45,220 nucleotides of DNA. Origin: Natronospirales bacterium. Lineage in GTDB: Bacteria; Pseudomonadota; Gammaproteobacteria; Natronospirales; REEB76. The notes beneath the pieces were generated by a model. The model was not told the origin of the DNA, made no database searches, and worked only from the letters and a program-made list of their open reading frames with translations. This document shows positions 35,825-40,492 of this stretch, one piece after another. A program made the position numbers and the translations under genes. The stretch lies in assembly GCA_021816765.1 (NCBI GenBank), contig JAKAXB010000015.1, forward strand, positions 1-45,220, read 5' to 3'. The stretch's first letter is position 1, and each line of letters starts with the position of its first letter.

Positions 35825-36556
35825 ATGGTCAAAGACGATTACATTCTGGTGGTAGACGATGATGCCGAGACTCGCGCATTATTGCGAGAATATCTTTCCC
35901 GCCAGGGCTATCGCGTAACTGCTGTGGCAGATGGCAATGCCATGGATAAAGCGCTGGAGGAGACAGGTGTCATTTTCGATATGGTAGTACTCGACTTGAT
36001 GTTGCCCGGGGAGGACGGTATTACACTTTGCCGACGCCTGCGCAAACGCGATAATCTACCGGTTATCATGCTGACGGCACGCGGTGAACAAGTTGACCGG
36101 ATTACAGGCCTGGAAACAGGCGCGGATGATTATCTCCCCAAGCCCTTCAACCCACGTGAGCTTCTGGCGCGCATCAAGAGCGTGCTACACCGAGCACGTA
36201 CTTTGCCCGAGGTACCGCACAGAAGCGATGTGCGATATTTCCGTTTCGAAGGCTGGCGGCTCAATACTGCTGCCCGTCACTTGATTGCTCCCGGTGGCGT
36301 AGTGATCCCGCTTCCGGGGGCCGAGTTCCGGTTGCTGTGCATTTTCTTGCAGTTGCCCAACGTGGTGCTGAGCCGCGAGCGATTAAGCGAAATGTTGCAT
36401 AGCCGAGAGGCTGATTTGCCCTTCAACCGCAGCGTGGATGTGCAGGTAAGCCGCCTGCGCCGACGGTTACAGGATCACGAGCGAAAATCGGCGGCAATTC
36501 GCACGGTTCGCGGCAAAGGGTACCTGTTCACGTTACCGGTGGAAATCGAACGCTGA
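35825..36556 (+). CDS. OmpR-family response regulator (second system)
   Basis: 243 residues. The receiver has D11-D13, phosphoacceptor D57 in MVVLDLMLPGEDG and the Lys in DYLPKPFNPREL; the winged helix covers about 145-240 (LPGAEFRLLCIFLQLPNVVLSRERL, VDVQVSRLRRRLQD, IRTVRGKGYLF). It shares long runs with the regulator at 22207 (LMLPGEDG, TLCRRLR, GADDYLPKPFNPREL), so they are paralogues. It is divergent from the RND efflux operon, with 87 bases between, and its stop overlaps the start of the kinase gene. Probable role: control of the RND operon. Confidence 0.94.
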   Translation: MVKDDYILVVDDDAETRALLREYLSRQGYRVTAVADGNAMDKALEETGVIFDMVVLDLMLPGEDGITLCRRLRKRDNLPVIMLTARGEQVDRITGLETGADDYLPKPFNPRELLARIKSVLHRARTLPEVPHRSDVRYFRFEGWRLNTAARHLIAPGGVVIPLPGAEFRLLCIFLQLPNVVLSRERLSEMLHSREADLPFNRSVDVQVSRLRRRLQDHERKSAAIRTVRGKGYLFTLPVEIER

Positions 36557-37926
36557 TGCATTTTTTACCACGCTCCCTCTCTGGCCGGTTGATATTGATC
36601 CTGCTTACCGGATTGATCGGTGCCCAGTTCTTGGCGGCCACTCTGAGTCTCTACGAGCGCGACCGAGCCATGATTTACTTTAGTGATCAGTGGTGGGCGC
36701 AGCACTACGCGGAGGTGGTGCATCTCATGGAAACCCTGCCTGCGGAGGAACGCCCACAGGTGGCCATCGCCAGTATCATACCGAGACTCATCGTGACCCT
36801 GTCACGCAAGCCCTTGCCGGATTCCCCAGGCTCACTGCCGGAGGATACCGCTGCTGTTAGGTTCCAGGCGAAACTGCAGCGACTTCTGCCTGGGCACATA
36901 GTGTATGGCTATCTACTCCGAATCCCGATACCGGGAGAGGAGCGGGATACGCCTTTTGAACTGGGCTATCGCATCCGCAGTGTGACCGGAGTGAGGCTCA
37001 CGGACGGCAATTGGGTATACTTTAATTTCTTGCGACCACTTCGACCATTTGCCGTGAGCGAATGGCCTTACCCGTTGCTCGTGTATCTTGCCGTGCTACT
37101 GGCGGCGGTAGTTCTTCTATTGTTGATCGCGGTACGACTTACGACGCGGCCACTGACGGTAATGGCGGCGGCGGCAGAGAAATTCGGCCGCGATATCAAT
37201 CAACCGCCGCTACCGGAGCGCGGCCCCACAGAGGTGCGCGAGGCCACACACGCCTTCAACGAGATGCGGATGCGTTTGCGGCGCTATGTGGAGGACCGTA
37301 CACATTTGTTGACTGCGATTTCCCATGACCTGAGGACGCCGATCACCCGCTTGCGCCTGCGCAGTGAGCTACTCGATGACGAGGAACTCAAGCAGAAATT
37401 CAATCACGACCTGCAGGAAGTGGAGGATATGACTGTCGCTACGCTGGAGTTTCTGCGGGGTTTGAACGTGAGTGAATCGTCGCAGCCCATGGATTTGATG
37501 GCGCTGCTTGAAACCCTTCAGGCGGATGCCGTGGAAATGAAACATGAAGTGACGGTAAGAGGTACGATATCCAGTCCGTTCCACGGCCAGCCACGGGCGC
37601 TGCGCCGTTGTCTCGAAAACCTGCTAAACAACGCTATACGGTACGGTGGGCGTACCGAACTGCGGGTACGGGAAGCGGGTGACAAGGTGGAGATCGTAGT
37701 GCGCGACTATGGCAGCGGCATCCCGGAAGATCAGCTCGAAAAGGTATTCGAGCCCTATTATCGTCTTGACAATTCGCGTAGTCGCGCGGGTGGTGGGACA
37801 GGACTGGGGCTGAGTATCGCGCGCAACATTGCCGTGGACCACGGTGGGGAATTGATATTACGCAACCATGCAGGGGGTGGGCTCGAAGCGGTACTTACCC
37901 TGCCGCGGAATCCGGAGTCGGCGTGA
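36556..37926 (+). CDS. sensor histidine kinase (EnvZ-like, second system)
   Basis: 456 residues. The ATG shares one base with the regulator stop (TGATG). Membrane segments at about 10-32 and 178-200 flank a periplasmic domain of about 145 residues. HAMP, HisKA with H257 in AISHDLRTPITRLRLR, and HATPase with NLLNNAIRYGG, DYGSGIPEDQ and GTGLGLSIARNI follow. The partner is the regulator directly upstream. The sensor domain is longer than that of the first kinase and shows no similarity to it by eye, so the two systems probably sense different signals. Confidence 0.94.
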   Translation: MHFLPRSLSGRLILILLTGLIGAQFLAATLSLYERDRAMIYFSDQWWAQHYAEVVHLMETLPAEERPQVAIASIIPRLIVTLSRKPLPDSPGSLPEDTAAVRFQAKLQRLLPGHIVYGYLLRIPIPGEERDTPFELGYRIRSVTGVRLTDGNWVYFNFLRPLRPFAVSEWPYPLLVYLAVLLAAVVLLLLIAVRLTTRPLTVMAAAAEKFGRDINQPPLPERGPTEVREATHAFNEMRMRLRRYVEDRTHLLTAISHDLRTPITRLRLRSELLDDEELKQKFNHDLQEVEDMTVATLEFLRGLNVSESSQPMDLMALLETLQADAVEMKHEVTVRGTISSPFHGQPRALRRCLENLLNNAIRYGGRTELRVREAGDKVEIVVRDYGSGIPEDQLEKVFEPYYRLDNSRSRAGGGTGLGLSIARNIAVDHGGELILRNHAGGGLEAVLTLPRNPESA

Positions 37927-37974: not shown

Positions 37975-39054
37975 TTATCTTTTTGTCTGTCCCATCGAGA
38001 TGACATCTTTTGGGTTATTTGTTGAACTTTCATTCAATTTGCCGCAAGCGGTTGCATCGAATGGTTCGGGGTTGATACTCAATACGCTACGCACGGGCAC
38101 TTGTACGTTTTCATTTACCCGCAAGCCGAAGATGTCGGGTCGCGCATAGTGGCCCGTCACGTCGAAGTCATACTTGCCCCGGCTAATCGCGTTCATGTCC
38201 AACGGCGCATAGAGTATGGTCTCTCCCCCGAAATGGGGGCCGGCCAGCACGTTGCCCAGGGGATCAACGATACAACTGCCGCCCCGCATCAGTACGTCCC
38301 CATTGGCTTCCAACCCTGAACGGCAGGATTCAGGGATGTCCTGACGTGTCAGATATTGGCAGGCGGACAGCACGAAGCAGCGTCCCTCCAGGGCGACGTG
38401 GCGCATGCTCGGCAGCCAAGTCTCGCGGCTGTCCGCAGTCGGAGCACAGTACAGTTCGATGCCTTTGGCGTACAGAGCCAAGCGCAGTGCCGGCATGTAG
38501 TTTTCCCAGCAGATGGCCGCGCCAATGCGGCCAATTTCTGTCTCCACCACTGTGAGGGTTGAACCATCGCCAAAACCCCAGACCAGACGTTCAAGCGCCG
38601 TCGGCATCACCTTCCGGTGTTTGCCGAGCAGGATGCCGTGGTCATCGAAGAAAAGCACTGTGCAATAGAGCGTGCCACCTGCGCGCTCAATGACGCCGAT
38701 CACAAGGTGCAATTTCGTTGATTTGGCGATGGCGCCCAACCGTTCGGTTTTTGGACCCGGGACCTCGATAGCCGATGCGTGATAGTTGCGAAATTGCTCT
38801 CGACCTTCGGCCGTCCGGTAGCCGATTCTCGCACCAAAATCGAATCCATAAGGATAGCCGCCAATAAATGCCTCGGGGAATACCATCAACCGAGCCCCTC
38901 GCCGCTGCGCATCAGCCGCAAGATCAGCGAGTTTGTTCAAACTGCGGTCGGCGTCAAACAGGATGGATGCGGCTTGTGCCACCGCCACGGGGAGTAAGCC
39001 GGTGGAAGGGATCACAGGCGATCCTCCCTGTTCGACGCTGAGTTCAAGGTACAT
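37975..39054 (-). CDS. nitrilase (carbon-nitrogen hydrolase family)
   Basis: 359 residues, the usual length of nitrilases. The catalytic residues are E61 ([11 protein letters not shown]), K148 (GKHRKVMPT) and C182 ([10 protein letters not shown]), with the second Glu E155 ([12 protein letters not shown]). Nitrilases turn nitriles into acids and ammonia. The CWENYMP signature is that of true nitrilases and cyanide-degrading relatives, not amidases. A cysteine-synthase-family gene lies upstream on the same strand, 92 bases away, in AT-richer DNA. Together they may process cyanide or beta-cyanoalanine. The start has no strong ribosome-binding site and may be further in. Confidence 0.92.
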
Positions 39055-39146
39055 GCGGCCGATTTGAAGACAATATTTTTCAAGGTATGCCCACGTCAGA
39101 GCAGTGATACGCGACCATTTTGTAGTCGCTGCAGAAATAGTGTTTC

Positions 39147-40100
39147 TTACGAATAGACGCCGGTAGAAATATATTTCAAACCAGAATCTGGTAAGACCGT
39201 AACTACCGTACTGCCCGGCTTGATGATTCCGGCGAGTTTTAATGCAGCGGCCACATTAGCGCCGCTAGACAGTCCGGCGAATATCCCCTCCTTTCTTGCC
39301 AATTGTTTGGCCGTTTCTATGCTTTCTTCATCAGTGACTGTGAGATAACCATCTACAAGCCGGTCATCCCAGAATAATGGTTTGAATGCATAGCCGCCGC
39401 CTTGTATTCTGTGTCTGGTGGATATCACAGGCTTCCCAGCCAGATAGGGGGCTCCCTCGGGCTCTACGGGGAAACACTTTATTTCCGGGCGGTGTTTTTT
39501 CAGTGCCCTGGCAATGCCGGTAAAAGTTCCGCCGGATCCCACGTAAGAAACGAAGGCATCAATATCGCCGCCGGATTGCTTCCAGATTTCCTCTCCCGTC
39601 GTCCGCTCGTGTGCCAGGGGGTTGGCGGGATTATTAAACTGATCAGGTCTATAGGCCCCTGATTTCTGCGTCAGTTCCTTGACCTTTTCCTCGACAAGAC
39701 TCAAATCCTCCCCCGACACGAAGCCTGGTTTTCCGCCCGGTGCCTGGGGGACAAGTATTACTTCCGCCCCAAAAGCAGAAAGCATTTGTCGTCTTTCCGA
39801 AGAATTGCCCTCGGACATGACGGCAATGAATTTATAGCCTTTTACTGCGCAGGCTATCGCCAAGCCGATACCCATGTTGCCGCTGGTTCTCTCGATTATG
39901 ATGGAATGCCCTGGGATGATCTTCCCGTCCTGCTCGGCTTGTTCCAATAGCTGTATGGCTACCCTGTCTTTAATGCTCAAACCAGGGCCGTAGTATTCGA
40001 GCTTGGCATAAATTTTCAGATTTTCCGTACTTAAGTTACGAAGCCAGACTAAAGGGGTTTCTCCTATCGACTCTAATACGCTATTTAATACGCCTTTCAT
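39147..40100 (-). CDS. cysteine synthase family PLP enzyme (CysK/CysM-like)
   Basis: 317 residues, fold type II PLP enzyme. K44 in LSIKDRVA is the Schiff-base lysine, TSGNMG (72-77) is the substrate-binding loop (usually TSGNTG) and GSGGTFTG binds the phosphate of PLP. The Met in place of Thr in TSGNTG, and GPGLSIKDR where CysK has NPGGSVKDR, set it apart from housekeeping CysK. Such enzymes make cysteine from O-acetylserine, or beta-cyanoalanine from cysteine and cyanide. The DNA is more AT-rich than the rest of the window, which hints at transfer. The nitrilase downstream supports a nitrile or cyanide role. Confidence 0.88.
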
Positions 40101-40492
40101 TTCGGAAGTTCCTCATTGGCCTAGTTCAAACCCTGCTCATATACTAAAAATGTTCCCCAAGCAGAAGCTGAAGAATCATCAATACCACGGGGAAACTCTG
40201 ATTCCAACTGCTTGATGCATTATACCTTTACTGTTGGCGTGCACTAAAACTACACCGGTTTAATCCGACAACTGCGCATTGAGTTTCTCTCTGCCAACAA
40301 CTTTCAGTTTTTGTGCCTTGTCCAATGTTTCATGTTTGTAACAGATTTCTTGCAAACCATGTATTTCCTGCTATTTTCTTTCCCAGCGGCAGAGGTCGGG
40401 GCGATTTCGTTGCATTTTCCCCGCCCGGCTGCAATTTTCCTCTGAATAAACGGTTGGATTCTTGCAACTATAGTCCGAATTAGGAGTGTGTT
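40101..40492. promoter_or_regulatory. AT-rich divergent promoter region
   Basis: 392 bases between the cysteine-synthase-like gene (minus) and the TonB receptor gene (plus). It is visibly AT-richer than its right side. For the receptor, TATAGT (40469-40474) is a good -10 with no clear -35, and TAGGAG precedes the ATG at 40493. For the minus-strand gene, TAGTAT/TATATG-like words near 40138-40148 may serve as a -10. No Fur box or other known site was recognised, and no gene is visible. Confidence 0.45.

Follow-up and report, generated by a model that had tools for sequence, protein, structure and literature searches.

The window analysed here, a 45,220-nt stretch of contig JAKAXB010000015.1 from a Natronospirales bacterium (assembly GCA_021816765.1), carries on one strand two neighbouring genes, the first encoding a PLP-dependent enzyme that resembles beta-cyanoalanine synthase (CAS) and the second a nitrilase (Table 1). 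The initial annotation had placed both at 39147-40492; the same-strand pair is real, but that interval covers only the synthase and the intergenic region upstream of it. Its reading of the synthase motifs LSIKDR and TSGNMG holds in the translated ORF, and its numbering of the nitrilase triad is exact in the ORF as drawn. The ATG of this nitrilase ORF has no Shine–Dalgarno sequence, and a GTG at 39013-39015, lying behind GGGAGGA (39022-39028), is likely the better start, matching the point at which homology begins (residue 17-22); the two genes are separated by 92 nt if the ATG is used and by 131 nt with the GTG. Promoter-like and terminator-like sites were no more numerous than in shuffled sequence, a search for riboswitches and other RNAs gave no Rfam match, and the neighbourhood of the pair revealed no cyanide source, dedicated regulator or transporter.

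Table 1. Features of the synthase–nitrilase locus, with positions counted from the first letter of the window.
Feature	Position	Strand	Remark
PLP-dependent beta-substituted alanine synthase, CAS-like, intact, 317 aa	39147..40100	-	PF00291, E=7e-77
NIT4-type nitrilase, 359 aa as ORF drawn	37975..39054	-	PF00795, 6.6e-60
Synthase–nitrilase spacer	39055..39146	-	no terminator-like site on the genes' strand
Likely synthase Shine–Dalgarno sequence, GAGGAA	40109..40114	-	8 nt upstream of ATG
Synthase K44, Schiff-base lysine (LSIKDR)	39969..39971	-	invariant in both alignments
Synthase asparagine loop TSGNMG, with M76 equivalent to T81M of plant CAS	39870..39887	-	
Synthase 43-residue segment (residues 113-155) with the 9-residue Tu-CAS-clade insertion	39636..39764	-	
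Synthase S189 of GSGG, equivalent to T185S of plant CAS	39534..39536	-	
Nitrilase catalytic E61	38872..38874	-	FPEAF, aligned with NIT4
Nitrilase catalytic K148	38611..38613	-	HRKVMP, aligned with NIT4
Nitrilase catalytic C182	38509..38511	-	ICWEN, aligned with NIT4

The synthase scores under every NCBIfam cut-off for CysK, CysM, CBS and SbnA. The CysK/CysM equivalogs gave 312.5 against 350.95 (TIGR01139) and 241.8 against 394.2 (TIGR01138), and SbnA gave 226.3 against 349.95; together with a tree position outside those clades, these scores reject a CysK, CysM, CBS or SbnA identity. Its best sequence match in the PDB is the spider-mite beta-cyanoalanine synthase Tu-CAS (6pmu, 44% identity), which is also the top Foldseek match (7mfj) of the AlphaFold model (pLDDT 92), with CysK structures close behind and the fold itself non-discriminating. 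Set against CysK and CysM in a phylogeny, a check that the initial annotation had suggested, the enzyme groups instead with the clade of this assayed CAS: an 85-row tree places it, with support of 100/100, in a clade of 15 rows that includes Tu-CAS and the Methylobacterium and Sphingopyxis kin of that enzyme but excludes E. coli CysK and CysM, plant OASTL, plant CAS and the paralogues from the window's genome. The placement was the same in a reduced 30-row tree and in a tree with added archaea, and a join with plant CAS was rejected in the 30-row tree (AU p 8.9e-86). The clade is further marked by its insertion, the segment concerned being 42-43 residues long in 15/15 members and 32-38 in 70/70 other sequences, which amounts to a single change on the tree; this 9-residue insertion has been described as unique to arthropod CAS and its bacterial kin (PMC4011162). 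Tu-CAS prefers the CAS reaction over cysteine synthesis 33.7-fold and keeps some cysteine synthase activity (PMC4011162). Since the genome carries CysK-, CysM- and CBS-like paralogues of its own, the window synthase would be surplus to cysteine synthesis.

The residues that separate CAS from cysteine synthase in plants give a further clue. According to the part of PMC5372542 that cites Yi et al. (2012), the changes T81M, S181M and T185S turned soybean cysteine synthase into a CAS. In our alignment soybean CAS reads TSGNMG and VMGIGSGG and Arabidopsis OASTL reads TSGNTG and VSGIGTGG, and the asparagine loop TSGNMG, which the initial annotation had regarded simply as divergent, proves to be the plant CAS form. 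At soybean positions 81, 181 and 185 the window enzyme has M/S/S (M76, S185 and S189) compared to M/M/S in soybean CAS, so that its second switch position is as in cysteine synthase. Methionine at the first position occurs in 10/15 clade members and in one of the 70 others (soybean CAS), and serine at the third in 12/15 and in two of the 70 (soybean CAS and the genome's own CBS-like protein). As the join with plant CAS is rejected, the M/S combination appears to be convergent in plants and in the window synthase. Tu-CAS itself has Q/T/V at positions 81/185/181, hence M/S (M at the first position, S at the third) is neither necessary nor sufficient proof of CAS function; within the Tu-CAS clade these residues are suggestive of CAS and not diagnostic. 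Covariation of M76 with S189 over independent pairs, of which there are only four, was not significant (p 0.5).

The second enzyme has the CN_hydrolase fold (PF00795) with an E-K-C triad, and we can firmly assign it on sequence grounds to the NIT4 type. Its best relative among solved nitrilases is Arabidopsis NIT4 (6i00) at 404 bits, the runner-up reaching 185, and in a tree and identity comparison made against Nit6803, NitA and CynD, with NIT1-3 left out, it falls in the NIT4 branch (support 100/100), alongside Arabidopsis NIT4 and about 32 sequences from bacteria. Identity is 58.8% to Arabidopsis NIT4 over 306 columns and 32-37% to Nit6803, NitA, 8uxu and cyanide dihydratase. A Nit6803/Nit1C assignment was rejected, the score being 217.6 against a cut-off of 502.6 and the protein falling outside that branch. 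Three further CN-hydrolase genes are present in the genome, none of which matched the window nitrilase at 1e-30, and it is the sole NIT4-type nitrilase of its genome. The nearest relatives (68% for a partial gene, and 63%) belong to other families of the same class, which points to a bacterial stock for this gene.

Taken together, these assignments make it somewhat better than an even bet that the pair catalyses consecutive steps of beta-cyanoalanine metabolism, the synthase making beta-cyanoalanine and the NIT4-type nitrilase hydrolysing it. Beta-cyanoalanine would form when cyanide displaces the thiol group from L-cysteine, or the acetoxy group from O-acetylserine, with sulfide released alongside if cysteine is the donor; the nitrilase would then convert the nitrile to aspartate and ammonia and/or to asparagine, so that cyanide would be detoxified and its nitrogen recovered. 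We infer co-transcription of the two genes, the substrates named here and cyanide as the physiological input. The route as such had been put forward in the initial annotation and is now partly supported, in that enzyme families and residues favour it more strongly than was known then: the synthase sits in a clade with an assayed CAS and the nitrilase is of NIT4 type, but conservation of the gene pair did not appear.

The composition of the locus is uneven. The synthase gene has a GC content of 50.1% (GC3 52.8%) and the region upstream of it 43.6%, against 61.3% for the whole window, and, ranked among window stretches of equal length, the gene belongs to the 1.5% with the lowest GC (13 of 886, its own overlapping stretches counted in). 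The nitrilase gene has 56.9% (GC3 63.6%) and thus resembles the adjoining regulator genes (55.7-57.5%, GC3 60-65%). A recount returned the same G/C numbers as first given (22 in 39121-39180 and 25 in 40201-40260), and the AT-richness originally ascribed to the pair applies to the synthase and its upstream region but not to the nitrilase. The difference in GC3 (52.8 vs 63.6) suggests separate sources for the two genes.

For the synthase, the source appears to be archaeal, a link that is new relative to the initial annotation. A scan of genome contigs found a homologue at 67% identity in a Thermoplasmatota MAG, and close homologues are present in ten of 340 genomes of that phylum, at 68-70% in three and at 59-63% in the other seven. 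With archaea added to the tree the window synthase groups with them (96/93), and a placement among the clade's bacterial members was rejected (p 0.014). An alternative tree in which the archaea form a clade with the window synthase outside was not rejected (p 0.21), and the direction of transfer consequently rests on distribution and composition. Archaeal synthase loci have a GC content of 33-44% vs 50% for the window gene, and eleven genomes from the host's genus or family, some of them incomplete, gave no synthase match at 1e-70; the nine of these that were searched for the nitrilase lack it as well. On this evidence the synthase gene probably moved from Thermoplasmatota archaea to this bacterium. 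Acquisition, as originally proposed, is well supported for the synthase by composition, tree and absence from relatives, and likely for the locus. The gene's relatives, which include a mine-sediment MAG, allow the guess that the host is an acidophile.

At the position of the pair, gene content differs from that in relatives. The RR-HK gene pair (35825-37926 in the window, and loci L110-L115 in relatives) is kept in the genus, usually with a heptosyltransferase gene next to it; all six genus relatives that were fetched have other genes after HK, five of them with the heptosyltransferase next or near. At the same junction the window genome has a nitrilase–synthase–TonB receptor region instead, which is lineage-specific.

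The archaeal relatives fall into two groups, those at 67-70% having M/S like the window enzyme and those at 59-63% having T/T (TSGNTG, GTGG). One T/T synthase (locus L164) is encoded near a cysteinyl-tRNA synthetase gene, which suggests that the T/T relatives are ordinary cysteine synthases, and this is one ground for the main alternative, in which the window gene is an extra cysteine synthase (an O-acetylserine or O-phosphoserine sulfhydrylase) taken from archaea for sulfur metabolism, with the nitrilase as a coincidental neighbour. Such a role would also suit the cysteine synthase activity seen in Tu-CAS (PMC4011162) and the prospect, raised by the non-conserved pairing and the unequal GC3, that the genes came separately. 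In contrast to the T/T archaea, however, both M and S are present in the window enzyme and the three sequences closest to it, and CysK-, CysM- and CBS-like enzymes are already present in the genome; we regard this alternative as unlikely, while leaving it appreciable weight.

Neighbouring genes elsewhere in the Tu-CAS clade bear on what else the synthase might make. Members of alphaproteobacterial type (L077 and L118) are clustered with genes for an XRE regulator, a glycine C-acetyltransferase-like and a threonine dehydrogenase-like protein, hinting at another substrate or at a link with threonine/glycine metabolism for those members. In two Thermoplasmatota loci (L009, 9027-10517; L162, 3113-4585) an M/S synthase adjoins an APC-family amino acid permease, the copy beside the permease in L162 being a second, broken one with transposase-like ORFs close by. 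Judging by these neighbours, functions within the clade are probably mixed. The window enzyme could then form some other beta-substituted alanine, or have cysteine desulfhydrase or lanthionine-type activity, with the nitrilase acting on an unrelated aliphatic nitrile; the threonine/glycine and permease neighbourhoods, and the many different contexts of bacterial NIT4-type nitrilases, would accommodate this. Yet only one assayed member of the clade is known here, a CAS, and the closest nitrilases that have been assayed (NIT4 and the Nit4 of strain CECT5344) use beta-cyanoalanine, which makes the idea distinctly improbable. An assembly artefact that put an archaeal fragment into a bacterial contig can almost be dismissed: the archaeal character and higher AT content of the synthase would fit it, as would the possible presence of both groups in mine-sediment metagenomes, but the contig around the gene spans 45 kb and includes TolC, RR and HK genes that the genus conserves, genome completeness is 99% and contamination 0%, and at 67-70% identity no archaeal genome seen is the source and archaeal flanking genes are absent.

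Returning to the beta-cyanoalanine route, we looked for the same pairing in 67 genome-contig loci, in 369 genomes across the class and 398 across the phylum (searched with each gene), in the 340 Thermoplasmatota genomes and in annotated plasmids. No cysteine synthase homologue was found near a NIT4-type nitrilase gene in about 32 other loci (flanks mostly of 1.5 kb, widened to 5-8 kb where plasmids or fetched regions were used); about 20 loci of synthase relatives likewise had no nitrilase gene nearby. The pair is unique within the sampled loci, an outcome that the initial annotation had named as counting against its proposal, and the case for the pathway consequently comes from family membership, residues and one instance of adjacency. 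Three genomes (two Brevibacillus species and G431) have both genes, apart from each other.

Plants are well known to have dedicated beta-cyanoalanine synthases, and so are mites and Lepidoptera, where the enzymes are of bacterial origin; for bacteria themselves the beta-cyanoalanine route has little documentation. It is regarded as vestigial in the cyanotroph that has been studied best (PMC8567248). Against this background the window may hold a prokaryotic counterpart of the plant CAS–NIT4 system, a two-gene unit of a Thermoplasmatota-type synthase and a bacterial NIT4 in which the CAS substitutions were gained independently of plants, a proposal to which we would give not quite an even chance. 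The plant system (soybean CAS 3vbe, Arabidopsis NIT4 6i00) shares the two proposed reactions, a NIT4-type nitrilase at 59% and, in its synthase, TSGNMG and GSGG; the window synthase differs in lying on another branch, in having the 9-residue insertion and in lacking S181M, and the genes are adjacent here. With spider-mite Tu-CAS and its Methylobacterium kin (PMC4011162) it shares the clade (100/100), the insertion and the best PDB and Foldseek matches, but identity to Tu-CAS is 44% with different switch residues, the window enzyme belongs to the Thermoplasmatota branch, and the Methylobacterium gene has no adjoining nitrilase. With a synthase–nitrilase pair this compact, two genes would suffice to test the route. 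Through its close kin of T/T or M/S type, the archaeal clade provides a natural experiment in the change from cysteine synthase to a cyanide-fixing enzyme and a comparison for the independent case of plant CAS.

The nearest arrangement in the literature is cysM3-maeB-nit4 of Pseudomonas pseudoalcaligenes/oleovorans CECT5344, part of a 14-gene cio cluster that also includes cioAB and mocR (PMC8567248, PMC11049912). Its Nit4 is cyanide-induced and has 3-cyanoalanine as substrate, and CysM3 is not believed to make that compound (PMC8567248). The likeness lies in a cysteine synthase homologue and Nit4 placed in one cluster, there for cyanide resistance; the Pseudomonas cluster differs by its oxidase and MocR, while the window has two genes only and a CAS-clade synthase, CysM3 being compared by its description only. 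The Nit1C cluster with its Nit6803-type nitrilases is similar in nitrilase superfamily and in cyanide or nitrile metabolism, but the window nitrilase is off that branch and no Nit1C partner genes adjoin it.

The CECT5344 cluster was reported to have no homologous cluster in databases (PMC11049912). In Agrobacterium sp. T29, plasmid NZ_CP040642.1 (L081, 3598-8553) encodes a MocR-like regulator, a NIT4-type nitrilase, cydA, cydB and a DUF2474 protein, all codirectional and separated by about 20 nt at most, forming a compact cio–nit4 cluster. A bd-type oxidase is also encoded in the window's own genome, its subunit I sharing 41% identity with the one encoded in the Agrobacterium cluster, which would be compatible with life with cyanide around. 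In Brevibacillus (L092, 54-5831; L093, 5341-11114) the NIT4-type nitrilase gene directly follows oxidase assembly genes (ctaB-like UbiA and SCO1/SenC), and these are the two Brevibacillus genomes that have a Tu-CAS-clade synthase elsewhere.
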